DNA from: a virus
DNA: 20,351 bases
Reading direction: 5' to 3' (one strand)
Virus record (IMG/VR): IMGVR_UViG_3300045007_000406
Coordinates: 1 to 20,351 of that record
The position numbers were made by a program, and so were the translations under genes. Position 1 is the stretch's first letter. Every line of letters starts with the position of its first letter. The notes under the pieces are model-generated. The model was not told the origin of the DNA. It made no database searches and was given only the letters and a program-made list of their open reading frames with translations. This document shows, piece after piece, positions 1 to 20,290 of the stretch.

Positions 1-263
1 GCCAGCAACTTGTCAATTTCCGTTTCCGTGCCGCTCGGCCGTGTGCAGCGAACGGTGAACTCGTCCGCGTAGGTTGCCAGGTAGCGATGTTTGCGGACGC
101 GGCAGGCGATCCGCAGACCACCGCGCATCGTCAAGGTGATCAGGTCCGTGTTCCGCAGGACGTCGTCGTCGGGCTCGGCCACGTCGATCAGCACGCGGCC
201 GAGGATCGACTTGATCTCTGGCAGGAAGCGGTCTGACCAAGCCTTGTCAGCTTGCCAAATCAT
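1..263 (-). CDS. Conserved phage-type hypothetical protein, 3' end cut by the window edge
   Basis: A minus-strand frame opens with ATG at 261-263 and stays open to base 1, giving about 87 residues without a stop. The protein begins MIWQADKAWSDRFLPEIKSI and continues with segments such as ATDLITL-like (TDLITLTMRGGLRIACRVRK) and DEFTVRC. This pattern of a tryptophan-rich start, a conserved TDL, then R-x-A-C-R-V-R and a basic/tyrosine stretch resembles a hypothetical family I recall from phage and prophage replication regions; its function is not known. The start lies inside the 3' end of the methyltransferase gene, with a 17-base overlap. A GGAGGA is present 11 bases upstream, which suggests translational coupling. 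Another minus-strand frame at 13-240 is arginine/proline-rich shadow and was not used. The family assignment is from memory and moderate at best; that it is coding is well supported by composition and overlap. Confidence 0.7.
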   Translation of the reverse strand, partial: MIWQADKAWSDRFLPEIKSILGRVLIDVAEPDDDVLRNTDLITLTMRGGLRIACRVRKHRYLATYADEFTVRCTRPSGTETEIDKLL

Positions 264-1899
264 GCGGGCACTGTTCCTCCGCCACGTGGTGGATCGCCTC
301 GACAGCCAACCGATGCCAGTCCTCGTCCAGTTCGATGCCGAAGAAGTCGCGCCCCAGCGCGTAGGCTTCCAGCAGCGTGTTTCCGGTGCCGAAAAACGGA
401 TCGACGACGGTGTCACCGGGCTGAGTGACGGCTTCAATCAGTTGGCGCAAGAGGTCGCGGGGCTTCTCCATCGGGTGCTCGCTGTCCTGGCAGTCGTGTC
501 CGGACAGGACGTCGGCCGCCCGGCGGACGAGTTTCGGGTTGCCCTTGACCGCGTGGATGATGCGTTCGTGCTGGGGGGCGAATGCGCCCGCCAGGTCGCC
601 GGCGCCGTGGTTGTTCTTCACCCACACCAGGCTGCCGCGAATCGTGAAGCCGGCCTGCTGAATGACTTGGCGAAATTCCGGTTCATTGCGCCAGCCCGTG
701 AAGATCAGGCAAGTGGCGTCCTCGGCCATGAGTGGAAAAGCCTTGGTGAGCACGTCGGCCAGCAAGGCCAGGGCATCGTCTTTGCCGTCGTTGGCGATCG
801 CTGCCTTGCGTGCGGTGGTGACGCGGCGGTGGCTCTGAAAATCCCCGCCGTACGGCGGATCGGTCAGCAGCAGTTGGAAACCGGACGGGGCGCTGGCCAG
901 CAACTCACGGGCGTCGCCGCAGAGCAGCTTGCCCGCCTGGGACGAGACGTAGCGAAGCTTGGCTTCCTCGCGTTGCAGCCGGCGCACTTCGCGGTCCTTG
1001 GTGTCGGCCGCGGCCCGCAGTCTTGCGGCTTGGTCTTCATCCGCACGCCGTTTCTGCGCGACGAGCTGGTGCAGGGCCTGCTTGACGCCCGCTTCGGTGC
1101 GCACCCGCCGATCGGCGAGCAGCCTGACGAATTGCGCGTTCCAGGGAGCTTCCGGGAGCGACTCGTAGGCCTGCTTGGCGGCTTGAATCAAAGTCAGCCA
1201 TCGCTGGGCCGCCTCGCGCACGACCTTGACGCTGGGCTTAATGCCGGCGGACGAACCGCGGTGCTTGGACAGGACTTCGGCAACCAGTTCGATTTGAGCT
1301 TGCTCGGTGGTCAGCCACGGTTCCAGATCTTTAGTCGATACAAGAACTCGCAAAATCTGGCAGCAATGTGTTTCGTCCAGCTGTCCGACTAAAGCCGGTT
1401 TGTGGAGGGCCGGCGTCTTGCTGAGGCGAATTCGGAAGCTCACCAGCGTCTCGCTGACGCCCAGGCACTTGGCCATCTCCACCTGTGACCAGCCCTCTCG
1501 TTCCTGTTGGACTGCGTAGTCGAGCCATACATCCACTGGATTCAGGCGGCTGTGTTTTTCGGCCTGCTCGTTGTCGCGATAGGCCAAGCACCAGATCGTG
1601 CTGCGATCCAGGCCCTCGTGCACGTAGACCGGCGCCGTCAGCAGTCCCGCCCGGCGCGCGGCCAGCAGGCGATTGCCGCCAGCGAAGACACGATACCCGT
1701 CCCCTTCGGAATAAGCCTTTAAGGCGTAGGCGGGATCGAATCCGTGGCGGCCCATGAACTCCGCGATCTCCGCAATGCGGGCCTCGTCGCGGTGGCTCCG
1801 CGGGTTGAGATCGCTGATCGCGAGTCGATCGAGTGGCACGTCCGCCAAGAAGTGGATGCCGTTGGCGATCGGGGAACGGGCTGCACAGACCATCTGCAT
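247..1899 (-). CDS. ParB-domain / DNA methyltransferase fusion (adenine-type DPPY motif)
   Basis: About 550 residues. Residues about 20-115 form a ParB/Srx-type domain, with the box-II-like segment VFAGGNRLLAARRAG. Residues about 137-161 look like a helix-turn-helix (WSQVEMAKCLGVSETLVSFR). A charged, probably coiled stretch at about 280-315 leads into a SAM-dependent methyltransferase. There the catalytic DPPY (347-350) comes before the SAM-binding DPFFGTGNT (about 500-508), an order typical of the beta class. HPMEKP (475-480) is also typical of this family. DPPY favours N6-adenine methylation. ParB-methyltransferase fusions are common in phages and mobile elements and usually have no partner nuclease; none is seen here. 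A TTG at 1914 extends the frame by five codons, but ATG at 1899 (or 1893, preceded by a weak AGAG) is more likely. The gene overlaps the gene at 1-263. The ParB box has GGNR where classical ParB has GERR, so CTP binding is uncertain. Confidence 0.9.
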   Translation of the reverse strand: MQMVCAARSPIANGIHFLADVPLDRLAISDLNPRSHRDEARIAEIAEFMGRHGFDPAYALKAYSEGDGYRVFAGGNRLLAARRAGLLTAPVYVHEGLDRSTIWCLAYRDNEQAEKHSRLNPVDVWLDYAVQQEREGWSQVEMAKCLGVSETLVSFRIRLSKTPALHKPALVGQLDETHCCQILRVLVSTKDLEPWLTTEQAQIELVAEVLSKHRGSSAGIKPSVKVVREAAQRWLTLIQAAKQAYESLPEAPWNAQFVRLLADRRVRTEAGVKQALHQLVAQKRRADEDQAARLRAAADTKDREVRRLQREEAKLRYVSSQAGKLLCGDARELLASAPSGFQLLLTDPPYGGDFQSHRRVTTARKAAIANDGKDDALALLADVLTKAFPLMAEDATCLIFTGWRNEPEFRQVIQQAGFTIRGSLVWVKNNHGAGDLAGAFAPQHERIIHAVKGNPKLVRRAADVLSGHDCQDSEHPMEKPRDLLRQLIEAVTQPGDTVVDPFFGTGNTLLEAYALGRDFFGIELDEDWHRLAVEAIHHVAEEQCPHDLAS

Positions 1900-2060
1900 C
1901 TCTACTGGACCCAAAACAAGTAGGTGGCGCGGGACGGGGCGTTGGGCGGTAGCTACGGTCGCGACATCCCGGCAGCAGGCATGTGGCTAAGCGACGAGGC
2001 GGGGGGCCACATTGCATCCCGCTACCTCTTCATATACGCCGTTTGCCGACGAGACGGCCG

Positions 2061-4893: not shown

Positions 4894-4930
4894 GTCACGC
4901 GGAACGTGACGATGTCACGCAGCTTGTGAC
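4894..4930 (+). promoter_or_regulatory. Tandem 17-bp dyad operator
   Basis: Two copies of a 17-base inverted repeat lie 20 bases apart: GTCACGCGGAACGTGAC (4894-4910) and GTCACGCAGCTTGTGAC (4914-4930). Arms and length are conserved while the centre five bases differ, as expected for a protein-binding site. The 20-base period puts both copies on the same helix face. The site lies between the stop at 4883 and the sigma-factor start at 5049. The bound regulator is unknown. Confidence 0.6.
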
Positions 4931-4949
4931 GCCCTACCCGCGAAGGCGA

Positions 4950-5047
4950 GGTTCGGCGTCACCATCACACGGCTGTCGCACGGGAAATCGAAAGCCGAAC
5001 CACGCCACCGCGTGCGGCACAACGGTCCGCGGGACCCAAGGGTTCGG
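4950..5047 (+). promoter_or_regulatory. Leader with mutually exclusive pairings before the sigma-factor start
   Basis: GGTTCGGC (4950-4957) can pair with GCCGAACC (4994-5001). The same middle segment can instead pair with GGTTCGG (5041-5047), which touches the start codon at 5049 and overlaps the AAGGG ribosome-binding site (5038-5042). The first pairing would free the ribosome-binding site and the second would hide it. This is the arrangement of a translational switch; whether the RNA starts upstream of 4950 is unknown. Confidence 0.4.
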
Positions 5048-5048
5048 T

Positions 5049-5684
5049 ATGTCTCAAGCAAGCGTGAACACATCGTCCGTGGCACATGACCTTCTCGATG
5101 ACTGGGCGTGGCGTCTGATCCACTGCAAAGTTGATGAGCTGATCGGCAGATATGGTTTGCTGGAAGCCGATCGTGAAGACCTGCAGCAGGAACTTGGACT
5201 GCAGATCCTGCTGAGCGCACCCCGCTTTGACCCCGCGCGTGCGAAGAAGAAGGCATTCACTCGGCGCGTCGTAAACAACAAGATCGCGGCCCTCCTGCGC
5301 CATCGCAAACGCACCAAGCGGCAGGAGCGGCAACGCACGTCGCTTTCGGCAGTCGAACATACGGCCAGCGGAGAGGTCCAGGAACTCGGCGAGGCGATCT
5401 CGGCCGACCGCCACGCGGCCTACCGCGGCTACTACTCGACCTGCCCGGCGGAGGCATTCGATCGGTCGCAGGACGTGGCACACGTCCTGGCCAGTCTGCC
5501 GGACGATCTGCGGGCGGTGGCGGAAAAGTTGCAGCACGATTCCAAGGCCGAGGTACAGCGCAAGCTGGGCCTTTCCAAACACGCCATGGCCGAGGTACTG
5601 CAGCAGTTGCGGGCGCGGTTCGCCGCCGCCGGGTTGGAAGACGACGGAAAAGATTTTCGGCCAACGCGTCTCGATTTGGCGTAA
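5049..5684 (+). CDS. ECF-like sigma-70 family RNA polymerase sigma factor
   Basis: 211 residues with ATG at 5049, preceded by AAGGG; an ATG at 4926 in the same frame gives an arginine/proline-rich leader that does not look like protein. Residues about 15-90 resemble sigma region 2: an amphipathic helix (WAWRLIHCKVDELIGRYGL), then EADREDLQQELGLQIL, then a basic AFTRRVVNNKIAALLRHRK helix. A linker follows (about 95-140). Residues about 143-192 resemble region 4, with LASLPDDLRAVAE and a helix-turn-helix (AEVQRKLGLSKHAMAEVLQQLRARF). In ordinary ECF factors region 4 holds the -35-binding helix. No anti-sigma gene is adjacent. Its position, just before the recombination cassette and after an operator cluster, suggests that it directs transcription of element genes. 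The family call is good; the regulon is inferred. Confidence 0.75.
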   Translation: MSQASVNTSSVAHDLLDDWAWRLIHCKVDELIGRYGLLEADREDLQQELGLQILLSAPRFDPARAKKKAFTRRVVNNKIAALLRHRKRTKRQERQRTSLSAVEHTASGEVQELGEAISADRHAAYRGYYSTCPAEAFDRSQDVAHVLASLPDDLRAVAEKLQHDSKAEVQRKLGLSKHAMAEVLQQLRARFAAAGLEDDGKDFRPTRLDLA

Positions 5685-5724: not shown

Positions 5725-6573
5725 ATGACCAGCAACAGCACCTGTTCTGCACCGCGGCCGACCGCGGGGGAACGAACGATGGACGTGGCGTTCCTCATCC
5801 GTGAACCAGCGGAGGTCTACCACGCCAAGGCCGGCGAATACCTCTCCAGCCACCAGCTGGCCAATTTTCGCAAGTGTCCCCTCCTCTATCACCGCAAGCG
5901 CTGTGGCCTAATTCACGACGAAGACCGCCCGGCGTATCTCGTGGGCCGTGCAGCCCACACGGTGATCCTGGAAGGCCTGGAGGTCTTCCATCAGACGTAT
6001 GCCGTCGGCGGGCCGGTCAACCCCAAGACCGGCCAGCCGTACGGCTCTTCTACCAAGGCTTGGGCCGAGTGGGCGGAGGCCCAGGGCAAGCCCGTGCTGA
6101 CCACGGAGCACTACAACCTGGTCATGCGCATGGCCGAAGGCGTGAAGGAGAACGCCGAGGCCCAGGGACTCCTCGGTGACGGCGTGGCCGAGGGTGTGGT
6201 GCGGACCGAGTACTGTGGGGTCGCCTGCCAGATCCGCATGGACTGGTGGAATCCCCAGCGCGGGATCGTCGACCTGAAGACGGCCGACGACCTGCAGTGG
6301 TTCGAAGCCGACGCCCGACGATACGGTTACGCCCACCAACTCGCCTTCTACCGGGCCGTTCTGGCCCAAGTGATCGGCGTCTGGAAGCCCGTGTTCCTAA
6401 TCGCCGTCGAGAAGAAGGAGCCGCACCGTTGCGGGGTGTGGCGCGTCTCGGACGACACGCTCAGCATCGCTCAACAGGAAAACGAAGCGGCCATCCGCCG
6501 GCTCCGGCAATGCACGTCTCTGGGCCGCTGGCCCACGGGCTACGAGGACGTGCGTTTGCTCGAAGCCGCCTGA
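5725..6573 (+). CDS. PD-(D/E)XK exonuclease, RecE/Exo VIII-like
   Basis: 282 residues. ATG at 5725 has CAGGAG eight bases upstream; a second ATG at 5779 would remove a poorly conserved leader and lacks a comparable site. After SSHQLANFRKCPLLYHRK (41-58), the nuclease core shows GRAAHTVILEG (74-84), then D173 (RMDWW), the DxK strand VDLKT (182-186) and QLAFY (205-209). These are the expected catalytic and supporting motifs of the PD-(D/E)XK fold as found in RecE C-terminal and phage exonuclease families. Such enzymes resect double-stranded DNA to give single-stranded tails, which an annealing protein then pairs. The next two genes (Sak4-like ATPase and DUF669) are usual companions, and this supports the call. 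A four-cysteine iron-sulfur cluster as in AddB/Cas4 was not seen. Confidence 0.85.
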   Translation: MTSNSTCSAPRPTAGERTMDVAFLIREPAEVYHAKAGEYLSSHQLANFRKCPLLYHRKRCGLIHDEDRPAYLVGRAAHTVILEGLEVFHQTYAVGGPVNPKTGQPYGSSTKAWAEWAEAQGKPVLTTEHYNLVMRMAEGVKENAEAQGLLGDGVAEGVVRTEYCGVACQIRMDWWNPQRGIVDLKTADDLQWFEADARRYGYAHQLAFYRAVLAQVIGVWKPVFLIAVEKKEPHRCGVWRVSDDTLSIAQQENEAAIRRLRQCTSLGRWPTGYEDVRLLEAA

Positions 6574-6695: not shown

Positions 6696-7466
6696 ATGAC
6701 GACTCTGCAACAAATCCAACGCGGCAAGCAGACCGTGCCGCCGCGGCTGATGGTTTACGGCAGCGAAGGCGTGGGCAAGTCGACGCTCGCGGCGCAGACG
6801 CCGGCGCCGATCTTCGTTCAGACTGAGGATGGCCTCGGCCAGATCGACTGCCACAAGTTCCCGTTGGCCCAGTCGTTCGACGACGTCTTGGGCGCGCTGG
6901 AGGCATTGAACACCGAACAGCACGACTACCAGACCGCGGTCGTGGACTCGCTGGACTGGGCCGAACGCCTGATTTGGGACGCAGTGTGCCACGACTACGG
7001 GGCCAAGTCCATCGAGAAGGTCGACGGCGGCTACGGCAAGGGCTACGTCTACGCGCTGGCCTACTGGCGCAAGTTCCTGGACGGCCTGATTGCCCTGCAC
7101 ACTCGGCGCCAGATGATGATCCTGCTCGTGGCCCACGCCAAGGTCGAACGCTTCGAAGATCCCGAATCCGCGGCCTACGACCGCTACTCACCCCGCCTGA
7201 ACAAGCACGCCGCGGCGTTGATCACCGAGTGGTCAGATGCCGTCCTGTTCGCCACCCGCAAGTTCCGCGTGGAGGCCGACACGGGCACCTTCAACCGCGA
7301 ACGCCACGTGGCCCACGCCATTGGCCGTGACGGCGGCGAGCGCGTGCTGCGCACGGTAGGCGGCCCGTCCTGCGTGGCCAAGAACCGCTTCAATCTGGCC
7401 GCCGAACTGCCGTTGGACTGGAACGCGCTGTTGGCGGGCATCGCCAGCGGCGTCTCCAGCAAGTAG
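6696..7466 (+). CDS. Sak4-like RecA-fold ATPase / single-strand annealing protein
   Basis: 256 residues; ATG at 6696 follows an AGGAAAGGA ribosome-binding site. It is a minimal RecA-fold ATPase: Walker A GSEGVGKST (22-30), a Walker B strand TAVVDSLDWAE (80-90, D84), and a later strand LLVAHAKVERF (143-153). Phage proteins of this type (AAA_24 / Sak4) bind single-stranded DNA and promote annealing or strand exchange. They commonly sit beside an exonuclease and a DUF669 or SSB-like gene, exactly as here. Length is normal for the family. The long loop YGKGYVYALAYWRKF (113-127) and the DRYSPRLNK segment fit the DNA-binding side of this family but were not tested. A general AAA ATPase function in replication initiation is the main alternative. 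Confidence 0.85.
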   Translation: MTTLQQIQRGKQTVPPRLMVYGSEGVGKSTLAAQTPAPIFVQTEDGLGQIDCHKFPLAQSFDDVLGALEALNTEQHDYQTAVVDSLDWAERLIWDAVCHDYGAKSIEKVDGGYGKGYVYALAYWRKFLDGLIALHTRRQMMILLVAHAKVERFEDPESAAYDRYSPRLNKHAAALITEWSDAVLFATRKFRVEADTGTFNRERHVAHAIGRDGGERVLRTVGGPSCVAKNRFNLAAELPLDWNALLAGIASGVSSK

Positions 7467-7500: not shown

Positions 7501-7956
7501 ATGCCGAATCTCAGTGGTTTCAACGCGAACGAAGTCGAACCGTCCACGGGCTTTGAGGTGATCCCCGCCGGCAAGTACGTGGCGGTCATCACGGACAGCG
7601 AAGTGAAGAAGAACAAGGCCGGCACCGGCAGCTACCTGCAGTTCACCTTCCAGGTCATCGAGGGCGAGTACAAGAACCGCTTACTGTGGGCCCGGCTGAA
7701 CCTGGACAACCCAAACGCGACGGCGGTGAAGATCGCCCGGGCCGAGTTGTCGGCCATCTGCCGTGCGGTGGGCGTACTGCAGCCCAAGGACAGCTGCGAG
7801 CTGCACGACCTGCCGCTGGTGGTCACGGTGAAGTGCAAAAAGCCCAAGGGGTCCGACGAGGTCGTCAATGAAATCAAGGGCTACGCCCAGAAGGAATCGC
7901 TGAACGGCAAGCCGGTCCAGGCCGCCACCGACACGCCGCCCTGGCGACGGGGCTAG
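7501..7956 (+). CDS. DUF669 family protein, probable SSB-like partner of Sak4
   Basis: 151 residues; ATG at 7501 has CAGGAGA upstream. The sequence closely follows the DUF669 pattern: a start such as FNANEVEPSTGFEVIPAGKY, VITDSEVKKNKAGTG-YLQF, VIEGEYKNR-LWARLNLDNP, AVKIARAELSAICRAVGV, and a C-terminal NEIKGY followed by a flexible tail ending TPPWRRG. DUF669 proteins are found in phage recombination cassettes next to Sak4-type recombinases and are thought to bind single-stranded DNA. The beta-rich core would suit an OB-like fold. The tail does not carry the acidic DDxPF tip of true SSB proteins; that tip is found instead at the end of the helicase at 10080. Confidence 0.9.
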   Translation: MPNLSGFNANEVEPSTGFEVIPAGKYVAVITDSEVKKNKAGTGSYLQFTFQVIEGEYKNRLLWARLNLDNPNATAVKIARAELSAICRAVGVLQPKDSCELHDLPLVVTVKCKKPKGSDEVVNEIKGYAQKESLNGKPVQAATDTPPWRRG

Positions 7957-7995
7957 CCGGTTCCCGGTGTCACAGGTTTGAGGAGGGCGCACGTC

Positions 7996-8337
7996 ATGGG
8001 ACTTCGATCGCGCAACAAAGGCAAGCTCGGCGAACGCGAGGCAGCCGCCGAGATCCGGCGCCTGTTTGGCGTCGAGGCGCGTCGCGGGCGCCAGTACTGT
8101 GGCAGCGACGATGCCCCCGACGTGGTCACAGGTATCGAAGGTGTTCACTTCGAGGTGAAACGAGCGGAAGCGTTGCGATTGTACCTGGCTCTTGAGCAAG
8201 CGACGGAGGACGCGTCCGAGAAGATCCCGGTTGTCTTGCACCGAGCCAACAACCAGCCGTGGGTGGCGATTGTCCGCCTGGACGATCTGCCGCAGTTGGC
8301 CACGGCGCTCTATCTGACACTCGCCCAGAACGGCTAA
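7996..8337 (+). CDS. Small PD-(D/E)XK nuclease, Holliday-junction-resolvase-like
   Basis: 113 residues. ATG at 7996 was chosen over TTG at 7978 because GAGGAGG lies at a good distance before it. The protein has the compact archaeal-Hjc/phage resolvase pattern: basic start MGLRSRNKGKLGERE with E13, the acidic APDVV (D42), and the catalytic strand HFEVKR (E53, K55). A helix and a final strand with NNQPWVAIVRLDDL follow. Enzymes of this type cut branched DNA. Lying in the middle of the recombination cassette, it would resolve joint molecules made by the exonuclease and Sak4-like proteins. A non-specific structure-dependent endonuclease is an alternative. No signal or membrane segment is present. 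Confidence 0.8.
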   Translation: MGLRSRNKGKLGEREAAAEIRRLFGVEARRGRQYCGSDDAPDVVTGIEGVHFEVKRAEALRLYLALEQATEDASEKIPVVLHRANNQPWVAIVRLDDLPQLATALYLTLAQNG

Positions 8338-8385: not shown

Positions 8386-10080
8386 ATGCAACTTAGACCC
8401 TACCAGCAAACGGCCATCGAGGCCGTCTACCGACACCTGCGGGATCGCGACGACAATCCGGTGGTCGTGATCCCGACGGCGGGCGGCAAGACGCCGATCC
8501 TGGCCACGATCTGCAAAGATGCGGTGACCCGCTGGAACGGTCGCGTGCTGATCCTGGCCCACGTCAAGGAACTGTTGGAGCAGGCGGCCGACAAGCTGCG
8601 GGCCGTCTGCCCCGAAGTGAAGTTCGGCGTCTACTCCGCGGGCCTGAACCGGCGCGACACAGAGCACGCGGTGATCGTGGCTGGCATCCAGAGCGTCTAC
8701 CGCCGGGCCTGCGAACTGGACGCCTTTGACCTGATCATCGTTGATGAAGCCCATCTAATTCCCACGTCGGGCGACGGCATGTACCGCCAGTTCCTGGCCG
8801 ATGCCAAGGCGGTCCGCCCGACTGTCCGCGTGATCGGACTCACGGCCACGCCGTTCCGCTTGGACAGCGGGTCGATCTGTTCAACGGATCATTTCCTCAA
8901 TGCGATCTGTTACGAGATCGGTGTCAAGGAACTGATCCGGGATGGCTACCTTTGCCCGCTGATCACGAAAGCCGGGCTGACCAAGGTCGACACCAGCGAG
9001 TTGCACGTTCGCGCCGGTGAATTCGTCGCCGAGGAAGTCGAGCGGCTGATGGATCAGGACAACCTGGTCGTAGCCGCCTGCCGCGAGATCGTGTCCCACA
9101 CCCGGGATCGTGAGAAGTGCCTGATCTTTGCGGCAGGCGTGGCCCACGGCCGCCACATCGTCGACGTGCTGCGACACGAACACGGCATTGACTGCGGCTT
9201 TGTGTGCGGTGACACGCCGTCCAGCGAACGCGCCGACCTGATCGCTCGCTTTCGCGATGAGCCGAGGCCGAGCCTGTTCCAGCACGAGCCGCTGAAGTAC
9301 CTGTGCAACGTGAACGTGCTGACCACGGGCTTCGACGCGCCGAACATCGACTGCGTTGCGCTGCTGCGGCCGACCGCATCGGCGGGACTCTACTACCAGG
9401 CGGTCGGTCGCGGGTTCCGCCTGCATCCCGGCAAGCAGAATTGCCTGATCCTGGACTTCGGCGGCAACGTGGCGCGCCACGGCCCCGTGGACCAACTCAG
9501 GGTCAAGGATAAGTCGGCGGCCGGCAGTGGCGAGGCCCCGGCGAAGGAATGCCCCGAGTGCCAGTCCGTAATCGCGGCCGGCTACGCGACGTGTCCCGAC
9601 TGCGGCTACCAGTTCCCGACGCCGGAACGCCAGAAGCACGAGGCCCAGGCGTCGGAGGCTGGCATCCTGTCCGGGCAGGTCACGACCACGAGCTACAAGG
9701 TCGAGGACGTTGCCTACAGCGTCCACACCAAGCGGGGCGCAGCCGAGGACGCGCCGAAGACCATGCGGGTCGACTACCGCGTGGGCTTCAACGAGTTCAA
9801 GTCCGAGTGGGTCTGTTTCGAGCACGCGGGCTACGCGCGCTGGCGGGCCGAACAGTGGTGGCGGAAGCGCTCACACGATCCCGTGCCAGACACCGCGGAG
9901 CGGGCGGTAGAGGTGGCCCAGTGCGGAGCCCTGGCGCCCACGCTGTACATCACGGTCCGCACCGTCGCGGGCGAGCCGTATGAGCGGATCGTGGACTACG
10001 AGTTAGGCCCGATGCCGGAGCCCTTGCCGGCCGAGGTTCTGCGCACTTACGAGGAGTCGCTGGACGATATTCCGTTCTGA
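8386..10080 (+). CDS. SF2 DEAH-box helicase with zinc ribbon and SSB-like C-terminal tip
   Basis: 564 residues; ATG at 8386 after GAGGCGAC. Helicase motifs appear in order: LRPYQQTAIEAV Q-like segment (3-14), Walker A PTAGGKT (30-36), DEAH (120-123), TATPFR (153-158), motif V TTGFDAPNID (313-322) and motif VI QAVGRGFR (338-345). A zinc ribbon follows, with CPEC (389-392) and CPDCGY (403-408). The C-terminal 150 residues are unlike common helicases but rich in aromatic residues, and the last residues are LDDIPF. That is the same acidic-hydrophobic ending used by SSB to recruit repair enzymes. The helicase probably unwinds branched or recombination intermediates. Restriction-type helicase subunits have a related core, but no restriction partner genes lie beside it. 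Confidence 0.9.
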   Translation: MQLRPYQQTAIEAVYRHLRDRDDNPVVVIPTAGGKTPILATICKDAVTRWNGRVLILAHVKELLEQAADKLRAVCPEVKFGVYSAGLNRRDTEHAVIVAGIQSVYRRACELDAFDLIIVDEAHLIPTSGDGMYRQFLADAKAVRPTVRVIGLTATPFRLDSGSICSTDHFLNAICYEIGVKELIRDGYLCPLITKAGLTKVDTSELHVRAGEFVAEEVERLMDQDNLVVAACREIVSHTRDREKCLIFAAGVAHGRHIVDVLRHEHGIDCGFVCGDTPSSERADLIARFRDEPRPSLFQHEPLKYLCNVNVLTTGFDAPNIDCVALLRPTASAGLYYQAVGRGFRLHPGKQNCLILDFGGNVARHGPVDQLRVKDKSAAGSGEAPAKECPECQSVIAAGYATCPDCGYQFPTPERQKHEAQASEAGILSGQVTTTSYKVEDVAYSVHTKRGAAEDAPKTMRVDYRVGFNEFKSEWVCFEHAGYARWRAEQWWRKRSHDPVPDTAERAVEVAQCGALAPTLYITVRTVAGEPYERIVDYELGPMPEPLPAEVLRTYEESLDDIPF

Positions 10081-13901: not shown

Positions 13902-14369
13902 ATGACACTGAACATCGAACGGGCGGTCACCGATCTGCAGCGGATGACCGCCAAGGAACTGCGGGACAGGTACGCCGAAGTGGTCGGCGAACAGGCCCGT
14001 AGCAGCCACAAGAACTGGCTCATCCGGCGTATCGCCTGGCGGTTGCAAGCCAACCATGAAGGCGACCTGTCCGACCGCGCCCGTCGGCGGGCCGCAGAAC
14101 TGGCTAACGACGCCGACGTGCGCGTCACGCCGCCCAGGGACCTGCGCACGGCCGCGACGAGCACCCCCGCCCCCGCAGCCCGCGACGAACGGTTGCCGAA
14201 CGACACCATCGAACGCACGTACAAGGGCCGGCTGATCCGCGTAGTCATTCGGGGGAACGAATTCGAGTACGACGGCCAACGGTACAAGTCACTCTCGGCC
14301 GTGGCCAAGGCAGTCAGCGGATCCCACTGCAATGGATTCCGCTTCTTCGGCTTGGAGGACAAGCGATGA
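13902..14369 (+). CDS. DUF2924 protein of the recombinase module
   Basis: 155 residues; ATG at 13902 with an AAGGAG site. The sequence follows DUF2924: MTLNIERAVTDLQRMTAKELRDRYAEVVGE, then SHKNWLIRRIAWRLQA, and after a proline/alanine-rich linker a second part with GRLIRVVIRGNEFEYDGQRYKSLSAVAKAVSG. In many genomes such a protein is coded immediately before a large serine recombinase. The two genes overlap here by ATGA (14366-14369), so they are almost certainly co-translated. It may bind DNA and assist or direct the recombinase, for example as a directionality factor. That is not established for the family. Confidence 0.9.
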   Translation: MTLNIERAVTDLQRMTAKELRDRYAEVVGEQARSSHKNWLIRRIAWRLQANHEGDLSDRARRRAAELANDADVRVTPPRDLRTAATSTPAPAARDERLPNDTIERTYKGRLIRVVIRGNEFEYDGQRYKSLSAVAKAVSGSHCNGFRFFGLEDKR

Positions 14370-15934
14370 CCCGGAAAACCAACAGCAAACCCACGGTCCC
14401 CACCATTCGCTGCGCGATCTACACCCGGAAATCGACCGACGAAGGTCTCGACCAAGAATTCAACTCGCTCGACGCTCAACGCGAATCGGGCGAGGCCTAC
14501 ATCGCCAGCCAGCGGGGCGCCGGGTGGGTCTGTGTGCCCGAACACTACGATGACGGCGGCTTCTCCGGCGGCAACATGGAACGCCCGGCCCTGAAACGGC
14601 TCTTGGCCGACATTGACGCCGGCAAGGTCGATTGCGTGGTGGTGTACAAGGTCGACCGCCTCAGTCGCTCGCTGCTGGACTTCGCCAAGATCATGGAGGT
14701 CTTCGAGCAGCGGAAGGTGTCCTTCGTCTCGGTGACCCAGCAATTCAATACGGCCACGTCGATGGGCCGATTGGTGCTCAACGTCCTGTTGTCGTTCGCC
14801 CAGTTCGAACGCGAGATCATCGGCGAACGCATCCGGGACAAAATCGCGGCCCAACGGCGCAGGGGCAAGTGGACGGGTGGCACGCCCGTTCTGGGCTACG
14901 ACGTGGATCGTTCGGGCCCCAGTCCCAAACTGGCGGTCAACGCGGCCGAGGCGGCCCACGTCCGCGAGATCTTCAATCTGTACCTGGCGCAGGGCTCACT
15001 TCTGCCGGTCGTCGAGGAGTTGGTCCGGCGGGGCTGGTTGAACAAGGCCTGGAAGACCAAGACCGGGAGGCCCAAGGGCGGACAGCCGTTCGACCGGGGC
15101 ACGCTGCACGCGTTGCTCACAAACCCGCTGTACGCCGGCAAGCTCCGCCACAAGACGAACCTGTACGACGGGGAGCACGAACGGATCATCGAACCCGACG
15201 TTTTTCAGAAGGTCCAGGCGCAACTCCAACAGAACAACCGCTGCGGTGGCGTCGAGGTGCGGAACCGCTATGGGGCGTTGCTGAAGCGGCTCTTGTACTG
15301 CAAAGCCTGCGGCCACACGATGGTCCACAACTTCACGGGCCGCAACGGGAGACGCTACCGGTATTACACCTGCACGCACGCCATCAAGAGCGGGCGGGCC
15401 GCTTGTCCGTCCCCGAACCTGCCGGCCGCCGAGGTCGAGAAGTTGGTGGTGGACCGGATTCGCTGTATCGCCCGCGACCAGACGCTACGCACGGAAGTGC
15501 TCCGGCAGGCACGGACGCTGGTCGCCGCCAACCTCGAGAATCTGAGAACCGAGTCGGACGGCCTGAAACGGGACTTGGCCAGATACCACGCTGAATTGCA
15601 GAAACTGACCGCCGACGGTCCGGTCCGCGGCGTGAAGGCAGATCGGATCGCCGACCTGCAATGCCTGATCGCTCAGGCCGAAACCCGGCTGGCCGAGGTG
15701 CGTGCCCAGATCCAGAAGCAGGACGACGAACGGGTCGAGGAACACGACATTCTGGCGGCGTTTGCCGATTTCGACGGCATGTGGAACACGCTGAGCCCGC
15801 GGGAGCAGGCCCAGGTGCTTACGCTGCTGGTGGAGCGGGTCGAGTTCGACGCGGCCACCAGCGAGATCCTGATCAGCTTCCACCCGTCCGCCATCAAGAC
15901 CCTGGCCCAGGAACAACGCGGGGAGAGCGTATGA
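14366..15934 (+). CDS. Large serine recombinase
   Basis: 522 residues. The catalytic domain carries RKSTDEG with serine S23 and R21, then YKVDRLSRS (94-102) and the FAQFERE helix (about 144-150), the usual active-site arginine set. A recombinase domain follows (about 175-290) with GTPVLGYDVD and GTLHALLTNPLYAGKL. The zinc ribbon has CKAC (312-315) and later C336 and C347. A coiled coil lies at about 385-455. This is the full arrangement of a large serine integrase that joins attP and attB by double-strand breaks with a covalent serine link. Overlaps by ATGA at both ends with DUF2924 and the HTH protein make a three-gene operon. The attachment sites were not identified. Confidence 0.95.
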   Translation: MTRKTNSKPTVPTIRCAIYTRKSTDEGLDQEFNSLDAQRESGEAYIASQRGAGWVCVPEHYDDGGFSGGNMERPALKRLLADIDAGKVDCVVVYKVDRLSRSLLDFAKIMEVFEQRKVSFVSVTQQFNTATSMGRLVLNVLLSFAQFEREIIGERIRDKIAAQRRRGKWTGGTPVLGYDVDRSGPSPKLAVNAAEAAHVREIFNLYLAQGSLLPVVEELVRRGWLNKAWKTKTGRPKGGQPFDRGTLHALLTNPLYAGKLRHKTNLYDGEHERIIEPDVFQKVQAQLQQNNRCGGVEVRNRYGALLKRLLYCKACGHTMVHNFTGRNGRRYRYYTCTHAIKSGRAACPSPNLPAAEVEKLVVDRIRCIARDQTLRTEVLRQARTLVAANLENLRTESDGLKRDLARYHAELQKLTADGPVRGVKADRIADLQCLIAQAETRLAEVRAQIQKQDDERVEEHDILAAFADFDGMWNTLSPREQAQVLTLLVERVEFDAATSEILISFHPSAIKTLAQEQRGESV

Positions 15935-16878: not shown

Positions 16879-18120
16879 TCAATTGGCATCGCCGCGAACG
16901 ATGGACGTTAAGAGTGCAAGGCAACTTTCCGGACCTGCGGCCATGGGCAGGCCGATGGAGTCGATTCGTACGATCTTGCCGTTAACGACCGTCGAAAGTA
17001 GCGTGCGAAATGAGCCGGGACCCTCCGCTGTTGGGTACACCAGCGACGCGGTCTCGGCGTCGAAGGCGACGGCGTAGGCACACATTTGAAACCGGTCCAC
17101 TCGATTTTCGTCGCCGAACTCGCGCTTGTACTTGGCATCAAGAACCCAGCGTGCCCCGGACCGCTCGACGATCAAATCTGCGGTCATCCAACGTTTCGGA
17201 TCGTCCCGCCCGGCAACGTCGTCCCATCGCCTGATACGTTGGCTGTCGCCCAGCCGACGCCAGCCTGTTTGAGCAGCCATGTCATCGAACATACGGCGTA
17301 GGGCTCGCTCCCAGACGATCGCGAGCGGCAGCGTGAAGGCCTGACCACCGCAATTCGAAGTCGGGTCCAATGCCGCTCCGACCAGGATCAACCGTGCCAG
17401 TTGCAGCACCTCCCGATAGCCCGGCGGACTGGCCCATTGGGCCGCGGTGACGGCGGTGAGCGGGTCGTTGATGTGCCGAGTGATGTGCGCCCACTGGTCA
17501 CGCAGTCGTGCGACACGCCGCAACTCGTCGGGTCGATTGCTCAACAGACTTGGGAGTCGGTCCAGGGCGAGGGCCAGCACGATGTTGAACGGCGTGTCGA
17601 GGGTTCGGTTTCGCTGCAGCTGCGGTACGCGAGGCAGGCGATGCAGCTGCCGTACCAACTCCGTAGTCAGAATCCGTCCACGGATTTCCGAATCGTCCGC
17701 CGTGACAGTCACGTACTCCTTTCGCAAGTGGCGACGCGTCACGTGTTCCAACGCATACAGGAACAGCCTGGCAATGCACTGCGGCCAGTCGTGTCCGGTC
17801 GAGACGCCAGCGTCGGGTAGCCAAGATGTCAACCGCGGAAAGTCCCCGAGATAGGCGAGCCATTCGAGCAACGTCACACCGGAGATCTTCGAGCGGACAA
17901 TCAGCCGTCGTCCGCTCGGCAGCATTACAAGCCCCACGCGACTTGCACCACGGATGGCAACCCGGTCGCCGCGCACGTCGAGCTGAATCACACCGCGGTT
18001 CACCTGTGCTTGCAGGGGCGCCCAGTCGTTCCCGAGTTCGCGTCGCGACCCCGTCCACGCCGGCATGACGCCGCTTCCGATTTCAAAGCACACGATGTCG
18101 TCAGGCCGCTGGCTGGTCAT
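16879..18120 (-). CDS. mcrC: McrC-like nuclease subunit of type IV restriction
   Basis: 413 residues. ATG at 18120 was chosen, giving a 20-base overlap with the upstream mcrB. A more upstream ATG at 18216 lies deep in mcrB and gives a cysteine/serine-rich shadow. The N-terminal half is a DNA-binding type domain with GVIQLDVRGDRVAIRG and a SKISGVTLLEWLAYLGDFP segment typical of McrC. The C-terminal PD-(D/E)XK core has IVWERALRRMF (E271), TADLIV (D315), the DAK strand WVLDAKYK (328-330) and RFQMCAYA (Q345). The protein would cut DNA once the McrB ring, driven by GTP, reaches it at modified cytosines. Size and motifs are intact, so the system looks functional. Confidence 0.9.
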   Translation of the reverse strand: MTSQRPDDIVCFEIGSGVMPAWTGSRRELGNDWAPLQAQVNRGVIQLDVRGDRVAIRGASRVGLVMLPSGRRLIVRSKISGVTLLEWLAYLGDFPRLTSWLPDAGVSTGHDWPQCIARLFLYALEHVTRRHLRKEYVTVTADDSEIRGRILTTELVRQLHRLPRVPQLQRNRTLDTPFNIVLALALDRLPSLLSNRPDELRRVARLRDQWAHITRHINDPLTAVTAAQWASPPGYREVLQLARLILVGAALDPTSNCGGQAFTLPLAIVWERALRRMFDDMAAQTGWRRLGDSQRIRRWDDVAGRDDPKRWMTADLIVERSGARWVLDAKYKREFGDENRVDRFQMCAYAVAFDAETASLVYPTAEGPGSFRTLLSTVVNGKIVRIDSIGLPMAAGPESCLALLTSIVRGDAN

Positions 18121-20290
18121 CGGTCGACTCCGACGGCGCGGCGGCATTTCGGTGCTCGACACATTGCAGCAGCAGATCCGAGATCTGCTGCTGCAAGTTG
18201 GCGTCGGCTTGGCCAAATTGCATGGTCAACAGTTCCCGGACGTACGGCAACACGCTGAACTTCACGATCTGCCGTAGCTGCTTCTCGCTCAGCGGCTTGT
18301 CGAGTTTGGGCGAGACCTCATCGTCCTCGGCCGTACGCTGCAGCATGAACAGCGCGTGACCGATGTGTTGTTCGGGGAGAATACCGTGTTCGGCCAACAA
18401 CTCGTTGCATCGCGCCAGTGCCGAGGCCTGAAACCCAAGCGGATTGTTGCCCGGTCGTTTGAGCCAACGATCAAGCGTCTCAGGCTGCGGATGCAGGTTG
18501 AGTTGCAGAAACCTCCGTTGGAGCGCCAGGTCCATGCGCCCAATCGACCGGTCGGCGCTGTTCATGGTACCGATGATGAACACGTTGCTGGGGAAGATGA
18601 AGCGTTGACCCGACAGAAGAGGAATCGGCGAGTCGCGGTATTCGAGCAGTTGCAGCAGTTCGCCAAGTACCGCCGCAGTATCGCAGCGATTGATCTCGTC
18701 CAGTACGAGCACGTGCCGAGCCTTGGGGCTCCAGTCCTTCAGTTTCGCTACCCACTTCAGGAAGAAACCCGTGCGCATTTCGAATCTAAGCGACCCGCCC
18801 TCGGACGGCTTGAGTCCCTGGAAGAAATCCTCGTAGCGCCAGCTGGCGTGCATGAACAGCACATCGGAATTGCCCTGCGGCTGGCCTTGGCGTTGTCGGA
18901 CAAAATACCGGGCGAATTGCCGGGCAATGAACGTCTTGGAGGTTCCTGGCGGGCCGACGAGGATCACTTGCCGCTTCGCCCATAGCGCTTCTTCAATGTC
19001 GGACAACAACGGCTCTGGCAACGCCGTGATCTCCGCCAGTTCGGCAATCGTCTTCGGGGCTGTCTCGTCGACCTCGCCGGTCTCTTCGTCGCCCGGTTTC
19101 GGAGCCAGCGACTTGGGACCCGGCGCGCTCCACGCACCGGTCATGGCGGCTTCGAAGAAGGGCCAAGCCCACGTGAAGTACTCGCCGATCTCTTCGACGA
19201 TCGTTGCGGCGTGTTCGGGCAAAGTGCCGAGTTGGTACTCCCGGACAATGCTGATGTCCGTCAGCGGACCGTCTGGCACGAATGTGTCGTCGCCTAGTCT
19301 AACGAGTCGTTCGGCAAAATCGGCCGGTGACAATTGTTCCTCGCGATCGCCGATGGACAGCCGCACGACCGTCTCCGCCGGGCAGTAACGAATGTAATCG
19401 GCTACGGCCTTTCGATTGCCTGCGATCGCCGCGACGAGTTGTTTCAGGTACTGGCCGCAGTAATTGCCCATCGCCAGGCCGTAGCGCCACACACGTGCGC
19501 CCCCAAGAAAGCGAACGAACAACTGCACCGATCTGGTCTTGCTTCCGGCGGCCGGATCGTAGAAGGCGAACCAATAATGATCGTGATATCCGCCTTTGCC
19601 GTAGTCATTCTTCTTGAGAATCGATAGATGTCTCTTGCCGCCGGCAACCGCGGGGTTCAGGCGTTGGATGTACCGCGTCCGTAGTCCCTCGACGATCGCC
19701 TGGCTTGGGTCACGCAGAACGTGTTCGTATCGCCGCCGATTCCGTTCGTGCCAGGGACCGTCCTCGGTGTGCTCAGTCAATTCCAGCAAAAACGCCACGG
19801 TCTCGTCCGAAAAAGTGGGAGTCGGCTCATCGTCTGTTCCCTCAGCTACGCTCGCGTCTTCGACCCCGGTCGACTCGTCAGTGTTGCTGTTGGGTTCTTC
19901 CTCCGTGGAGGCCATTCGTTCTTGCTTGATGGTGTCATCCGTCTTGATTGCCTCCTGTAACTTGGCCTGCTCGGCGTCGGTCAATGCCGCTCGCACGTAG
20001 TACGGAGCGAAGCTTGGGGCGCTCGGCGCGTGTTTCAACTGATGATCGTCGGCCCCAACCTCGACGGTCTTTGAGTTGCCCCCCATGTGCATTGGCAGCT
20101 TCGCGAAGGCTTCAAATGCGACATCTTCCGGCACGGCCCAGGCGTCCAGTGCAGACTCCTCGACATCCCAGTGCATCAGTAGATACACGACGGGCCGCTC
20201 CCGCGCCAACTCGTGGAACTGCTGAACGACGGACTCCTGCGCCGTGGACCAGTGATGCTCGAGGACTCGCGAGTTCCGCAGGGCAATCAC
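18101..20290 (-). CDS. mcrB: McrB-like AAA+ motor with an atypical N-terminal half
   Basis: 729 residues from a GTG at 20290; the frame stays open to the window edge, so a longer protein cut by the edge is possible. The AAA+ domain has Walker A GPPGTSKT (446-453), Walker B VLVLDEINR (527-535), the McrB-type GTMNSADRS (574-582) and a following arginine pair (about 592-593). The N-terminal half does not show the common DUF3578 or EVE modified-base readers. It has a start of unknown fold (about 1-125), an acidic linker (about 128-160), and a region (about 165-385) with WHERNRRRYEHVL and later YWFAFYDP and LFVRFLGG that resembles DUF2461-type spacing. That region would set target specificity. The downstream overlap with mcrC supports one operon. 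Confidence 0.85.
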   Translation of the reverse strand: MIALRNSRVLEHHWSTAQESVVQQFHELARERPVVYLLMHWDVEESALDAWAVPEDVAFEAFAKLPMHMGGNSKTVEVGADDHQLKHAPSAPSFAPYYVRAALTDAEQAKLQEAIKTDDTIKQERMASTEEEPNSNTDESTGVEDASVAEGTDDEPTPTFSDETVAFLLELTEHTEDGPWHERNRRRYEHVLRDPSQAIVEGLRTRYIQRLNPAVAGGKRHLSILKKNDYGKGGYHDHYWFAFYDPAAGSKTRSVQLFVRFLGGARVWRYGLAMGNYCGQYLKQLVAAIAGNRKAVADYIRYCPAETVVRLSIGDREEQLSPADFAERLVRLGDDTFVPDGPLTDISIVREYQLGTLPEHAATIVEEIGEYFTWAWPFFEAAMTGAWSAPGPKSLAPKPGDEETGEVDETAPKTIAELAEITALPEPLLSDIEEALWAKRQVILVGPPGTSKTFIARQFARYFVRQRQGQPQGNSDVLFMHASWRYEDFFQGLKPSEGGSLRFEMRTGFFLKWVAKLKDWSPKARHVLVLDEINRCDTAAVLGELLQLLEYRDSPIPLLSGQRFIFPSNVFIIGTMNSADRSIGRMDLALQRRFLQLNLHPQPETLDRWLKRPGNNPLGFQASALARCNELLAEHGILPEQHIGHALFMLQRTAEDDEVSPKLDKPLSEKQLRQIVKFSVLPYVRELLTMQFGQADANLQQQISDLLLQCVEHRNAAAPSESTDDQPAA
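18164..18196 (-). repeat. Perfect 15-bp inverted repeat within the mcrB 3' end
   Basis: TTGCAGCAGCAGATC (18164-18178) and GATCTGCTGCTGCAA (18182-18196) are perfect arms with a three-base centre. In the minus-strand mRNA they form a 15-pair stem that begins about 44 bases before the mcrC start at 18120. The coded protein reads LQQQISDLLLQ, so the symmetry comes from a glutamine/leucine-rich helix. Structure and amino-acid constraint both explain it, and a translational effect is possible. Confidence 0.55.

Follow-up and report, generated by a model that had tools for sequence, protein, structure and literature searches.

An SSB-like acidic tip on a RadD-like phage helicase: a probable docking peptide relocated among the proteins of a recombination cassette

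Known SSB tips and the cassette analysed

In bacterial DNA metabolism, the C-terminal tip of SSB is a classic recruiting peptide, and it is regarded as belonging to SSB. In Escherichia coli, RadD binds this peptide (SSB-Ct) via a pocket comprising R21, R49, and R145, and its ATPase is thereby stimulated (PMC10238739). In phage replication, Sak4 and SSB function as a pair (PMC5499656), and in HK620 the DUF669 SSB loads and stimulates Sak4, for which it relies on its six C-terminal residues, NDYPPF (PMC5928155). Neither the motif nor the helicase family is new, and the pairing of Sak4 with DUF669 is also known. The literature that we searched, in which subscription journals were thinly covered, did not yield a phage helicase or clamp ending in an SSB-type tip, nor an exclusive distribution of the tip over four carriers.

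We analysed a virus record of 20,351 bases (the whole stretch is called the window here), whose close relatives in cellular genomes are nearly all from Planctomycetota. The features on which the analysis centres, from the exonuclease of the recombination cassette to the last codon of the helicase, are collected in Table 1. The cassette is headed by a gene with a match to sigma-70 region 2 (PF04542; phrog_1740; window 4926-5684, +). On the opposite strand, a 555-aa protein consists of a ParB-like N-terminal part fused to an N6/N4 DNA methyltransferase (window 247-1914, -), and a McrBC-type restriction-like gene pair (PF10117 and an AAA_5 ATPase; window 16879-20290, -) lies beyond a serine integrase (14366-15934) and a DUF2924 protein (13902-14369).

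Table 1. Features of the recombination cassette and of the helicase, in window coordinates
Feature	Position	Strand	Basis
PDDEXK exonuclease of the recombination cassette	5725..6573	+	DUF3799 / phrog_412
Sak4-like annealase, candidate partner of the tip	6696..7466	+	AAA_24 / phrog_124; co-occurrence with the tip
DUF669 phage SSB, without acidic tip	7501..7956	+	PF05037; phrog_6015 ssDNA-binding protein
PPWRRG C-terminus of the DUF669 SSB, a conserved non-acidic tail	7936..7953	+	sequence comparison
Member of the RusA-like resolvase family, encoded between SSB and helicase	7978..8337	+	phrog_244
RadD-like SF2 helicase, 564 aa	8386..10080	+	ResIII + Helicase_C + zinc ribbon + C-terminal domain
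Zinc ribbon of the helicase (C389, C392, C403, C406)	9550..9603	+	UPF0547
Helicase linker, residues 541-558, from last core strand to tip	10006..10059	+	AF2 model; relatives
SSB-Ct-like acidic tip LDDIPF, stop directly after	10060..10077	+	sequence; conservation in relatives

The helicase and its C-terminal tip

The helicase ORF starts with ATG, ends with TGA at 10078-10080, and matches the profile of PHROG 16 phage DNA helicases over the helicase core (E 1.5e-94). Its product has a RecA-like domain pair for which RadD is the nearest solved structure (E. coli chain 6jde_B, E 5.3e-64), also when the AF2 model was submitted to Foldseek (best match 7r7j, E 2.8e-37). The four zinc-ribbon cysteines are invariant or nearly so among 105 aligned helicases. 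Against the RadD model NF053632, the protein scores 301 bits, aligned over residues 1-393 only, and the curated cut-off is 720. Since this score is far below the equivalog cut-off, we describe the helicase as RadD-like and not as RadD.

The initial annotation, made from the sequence alone, had reported that the helicase ends in LDDIPF directly before the stop codon, and that the DUF669 SSB of the same cassette has no such tip. Both statements are borne out by the window: the helicase ends ...TYEESLDDIPF, with the tip encoded by CTG GAC GAT ATT CCG TTC, and the SSB ends ...ATDTPPWRRG. Among the 264 ORFs of at least 45 aa in the window, the helicase is the only one with a tip-like terminus. The annotation had also likened this end to that of SSB, a likeness that we uphold, as the end is conserved and free at the C-terminus, and comparison with homologues does not refute it. 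Specifically, an acidic-[I/V/A/L/P]P[F/W] terminus is kept by 78 of the 79 complete relatives at 65-74% identity. Further away, the helicases of Roseobacter phages CRP-901 and CRP-902 (39-40% identity) end EEIPF and EDIPF, and that of Acinetobacter phage HD01 (35% identity) ends EDDLPF. Across 114 helicases made non-redundant at 88% identity, the motif [DE].{0,2}[ILVAP]P[FW]-stop is found in 95.

The carrier of this tip is an SF2 helicase and not an OB-fold ssDNA-binding domain, and yet its end is built as an SSB-Ct peptide is built. Acidic residues and [I/L/V/P]-P-F stand at the extreme C-terminus, preceded by a linker whose length and sequence are not conserved among relatives and which appears flexible in the AF2 model, where the last strand ends at residue 540 and the pLDDT of residues 551-564 drops to 61 and 53. 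Because the last three residues of the tip are encoded by 52 different 9-mers, and because no consensus is seen in the helicases N-terminal to position -7 (entropies from tip-bearing rows only), selection appears to act at the level of the peptide rather than of the DNA. Other plus-strand ORFs of the same loci match the tip in 5/7,520 cases; judged by these sequence comparisons, the helicase tip is not due to chance. The helicases have the tip in two flavours, ...DEIPF and ...DFPFGxNAVAAEEEIPW. Those of the EEEIPW flavour (related loci L006-L012, L020-L023, and others) contain a second conserved motif, DFPFGxNA, located internally about 10 residues before the tip.

Given the relationship to RadD, the tip might dock in a RadD-type SSB-Ct pocket of the helicase itself, in cis or between helicases. 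It would then replace SSB as the stimulator of the ATPase, and elsewhere a clamp or a four-cysteine protein (see below) would feed the helicase instead. Two of the three arginines of the pocket do have counterparts in the window helicase, where R19 and R148 correspond to R21 and R145 of RadD, and the pocket positions remain hydrophobic. However, the equivalent of R49, which is the partner of the terminal carboxylate in the published RadD model, is N51 in the window, nearly all relatives have N, Q, G, D, or S there, and many of them have A, Q, or S in place of R21; a strictly conserved RadD SSB pocket was looked for and not found. Two AF2 models likewise contain no confident docking (tip pLDDT 53 and 45), which, for single-chain models, is a weak negative. 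We consider such self-regulation improbable.

Carriers of the tip across related cassettes

Helicases of one side branch are tip-less, with the stop codon immediately behind the core (KYPEIMSYEY-stop). Next to the helicase gene of Escherichia phage Shy and Pseudomonas phage Pavpe01, and overlapping its stop, a gene encodes a protein of 76-87 aa that ends HDFDIPF, and in many further loci a small four-cysteine protein, PHROG 23504, to which no function is assigned, ends DIPF. Among phages of laboratory E. coli K-12, Halfdan, like Shy, has the tip on the four-cysteine protein, and WildeMaa has it on the helicase, which ends DYVPF. Members of PHROG 23504 (L268:5634-5861, L155:4216-4437, and others) have four invariant cysteines, an invariant terminal PF, and no Pfam match, and they are mostly encoded at the stop of a helicase that itself lacks the tip. 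A third carrier is the sliding clamp, or DNA polymerase processivity factor (PHROG 947), which ends NYEDDIPF in Pseudomonas phage C1. PHROG 947 clamps at L272:5929-7068 and L148:5759-6901 have a C-terminal extension ending DDIPF or DEIPF, and the clamps of sister phages without this extension terminate in the core. Finally, the tip is found on the DUF669 SSB in Streptococcus and Listeria phages and in HK620 (IDLPF, NDLPF, NDYPPF), and the helicases of the Streptococcus and Listeria phages are tip-less.

We then counted carriers over the 291 related loci whose helicase is complete. The helicase bears the tip in 203, the clamp in 25, the four-cysteine protein in 20, and the DUF669 SSB in 12, with no recognisable carrier in the remaining 31. 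Thus, exactly one carrier is present in 260/291 loci, and two of the four are present together in 0/291. Where the four-cysteine protein bears the tip, a clamp is often present, and wherever seen it is tip-less and ends in its core. The 31 tip-less loci include near misses, namely clamps ending DDISV and DDEIQF and helicases ending DDNIAF and EDISF.

Three further termini were recorded outside this count. A 90-aa protein just downstream of a tip-bearing helicase (L081:4738-5007) ends TEEEIPW; it belongs to no assigned family and is none of the four carriers counted, and L081 is the one plausible two-tip locus. The small protein HkaM, encoded beside the HK620 Sak4 (L318, 5754-5942), ends SVPSELPF, which resembles a second tip in addition to the NDYPPF of the SSB. 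The gene at L157:5689-7653, which follows a tip-less helicase, encodes 654 aa ending EEQLLLF, which resembles a beta-clamp-binding motif and not an SSB tip.

When the comparison is restricted to the 199 loci in which the SSB is seen and at least 1.5 kb is available downstream, the tip is on the helicase only in 134, on another carrier only in 48, on both in 0, and on neither in 17 (Fisher p 5e-32); for 57 clusters at 70% identity, the corresponding numbers are 28, 22, 0, and 7 (Fisher p 6e-10), where both p values ignore descent. On a tree of 75 representatives, the state of the helicase tip changes four times, two of these changes being forced by supported branches, and the carrier switches about six times if the state "none" is left out. 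With so few swaps, an independent-pairs sign test is under-powered, and the loci had been collected through similarity to a handful of query helicases. At the level of sequence, the exclusivity is striking, but it rests on few independent swaps, and this is its main weakness. On the same tree, the F-to-W change in the tip was considered as a probe of covariation with a partner and set aside, as only two such changes occur and the probe has no power.

To obtain an independent test, we retrieved records with a single four-cysteine protein as the query, rather than with a helicase. The helicase is tip-less in 5/5 of these records, and the clamps read in three of them and the SSB tails read in four fit the rule of one tip per cassette. 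The helicase of Pseudomonas phage Knedl has a long tail, ending DTEGYF, and is separated by 2.2 kb from the four-cysteine gene, an arrangement that looks like a separate swap. In addition, a search of whole records detected the four-cysteine family in 0/10 records with a helicase or clamp carrier and in 2/2 records in which it is itself the carrier.

These distributions bear on the simplest account of the tip, in which its likeness to SSB would be a by-product of common descent, that is, a conserved C-terminus with no docking role. Most helicase carriers do fall in two large clades, as this account would have it. Yet the tip is conserved behind an unconserved linker with many different codings of its last three residues, the change seen at it is not that of a neutral rate, and the same motif also ends the unrelated phrog_947 clamp, the phrog_23504 protein, and DUF669, in a mutually exclusive manner. 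We therefore regard common descent without docking as highly improbable.

The tail of the DUF669 SSB follows the position of the tip. With the tip elsewhere, it is a PxW motif in 202/204 cases (PPW[K/R]R in the group of the window), and the tails of the two exceptions look disrupted; with the acidic tip on DUF669 itself, PxW is absent in 12/12 cases. The non-acidic PPW[K/R]R or PxW end is seen in loci L002-L245 wherever the tip sits elsewhere. Compensation by DUF669 for loss of the helicase tip in near relatives was considered and rejected, as its tail stays PxW in them; the compensation comes from the four-cysteine protein or the clamp. Altogether, these patterns suggest a one-tip rule, to which we give slightly better than even odds: in evolution, a single SSB-Ct-like peptide would be passed among four unrelated carriers, because no more than one tether for a shared partner would be wanted, and the SSB tail would be rebuilt as an orthogonal PxW.

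Candidate partners of the tip

That the tip is a docking peptide relocated among carriers is very probable in our judgement, and the identity of its partner is the more delicate part of the argument. Because Sak4 of HK620 depends on the tip of the DUF669 SSB, we favour the phage's own Sak4, which is present in 153/160 tip-bearing loci with at least 2.8 kb of upstream sequence. Conversely, no tip lies near the RadD-like helicases of seven phages without a detectable Sak4, and two other such phages have a canonical SSB ending DDDIPF or DEDIPF. The co-occurrence of tip and Sak4 is confounded, since both lie within one cassette. Moreover, 15 of the 31 tip-less loci, counted among those with enough upstream sequence, have Sak4, so that either the tip is not strictly required or it lies outside the stretch read. 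Perhaps the DUF669 PxW tail is the cognate contact of Sak4, which could free the acidic tip for something else. If the tip is a relocated docking peptide, Sak4 is, by a narrow margin, our expected main partner.

The initial annotation had instead proposed that the helicase may recruit host SSB-interacting proteins (exonuclease I, RecO, RecQ, PriA) or compete with SSB for them. In this account, the tip would recruit or divert proteins such as PriA, RecO, DnaG, or ExoI: DUF669 would coat the phage ssDNA without a tip that the host can read, and another fork protein would therefore supply one. The helicase and the clamp are indeed fork proteins, and the DUF669 tail of the window is not acidic. 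Furthermore, DDDIPF, which occurs among the tips, is identical to the hexapeptide that PMC5872125 and PMC10238739 give for the E. coli SSB-Ct, and host SSBs of the carrier genomes end IPF/PPF; host proteins could bind a tip that is a near-perfect host SSB-Ct. However, the helicases in planctomycete genomes end EEIPW, EEVPW, and EEAPF, as opposed to the IPF/PPF of the host SSBs read there, which speaks against a strict copy of the host tip. Also against a host partner is the lack of a nearby tip in the seven phages without a detectable Sak4, although the two others do have a canonical SSB. Considering the HK620 dependence and the presence of Sak4 in nearly every tip-bearing cassette, a phage partner is at least as likely as a host one, and we hold the host proposal to be doubtful, although it is the main rival.

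Our preferred reading is thus a relocated SSB-Ct docking peptide on the helicase with the phage's own Sak4 annealase as its most likely partner, to which we assign a probability of about 0.47. According to this reading, the Sak4/DUF669/RadD-like-helicase cassette would carry one acidic tip on one DNA-working protein, which would be the DUF669 SSB in Gram-positive phages and HK620, the helicase here, and the clamp or the four-cysteine protein in others. On its flexible linker, the tip may capture a partner that offers a hydrophobic pocket with a basic rim, and the captured partner would be held where the helicase works on DNA. With Sak4 as this partner, unwinding or strand exchange might be coupled to annealing; the choice of Sak4 is the least certain step.

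If the movable tip is confirmed, the carrier would indicate where the partner is needed, and the exclusivity would indicate that a second copy is unwanted. The partner of a large and widespread phage recombination cassette would become directly testable, and a hint of function would be gained for the uncharacterised phrog_23504 and for the DUF669 PxW tail. The natural tip variants (IPF, IPW, APF) could be used to study the specificity of docking.

Comparison with known systems

The tip resembles the bacterial SSB-Ct (MDFDDDIPF in E. coli) in its acidic residues followed by hydrophobic-Pro-Phe, its free C-terminus, and its disordered linker; it differs in being on an SF2 helicase instead of an OB-fold SSB, and in the occurrence of terminal Trp and EEAPF variants. 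E. coli RadD (YejH) shares the helicase family and is the closest solved structure, but it binds SSB-Ct as a receptor and ends RFRLAHELRG, with no tip, whereas the phage helicase displays the tip and falls under the NCBIfam RadD cut-off. HK620 has the same gene pair, with Sak4 beside DUF669, and an acidic-PF tip whose role in Sak4 loading has been shown (PMC5928155); there the tip is on the SSB, while in the window it is on the helicase and the SSB ends PPWRRG. The gp4 protein of T7, a hexameric primase-helicase, has no relationship to RadD, and the T7 sources read describe no relocation of a tail between carriers. Nevertheless, the acidic C-terminal tail of this phage helicase docks on a replisome partner, gp5 (PMC12593628), and the T7 SSB, gp2.5, which also has an acidic tail, has an essential C-terminal Phe according to the title of a study cited in PMC9917605. 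T7 is the nearest precedent for a helicase with an acidic docking tail.
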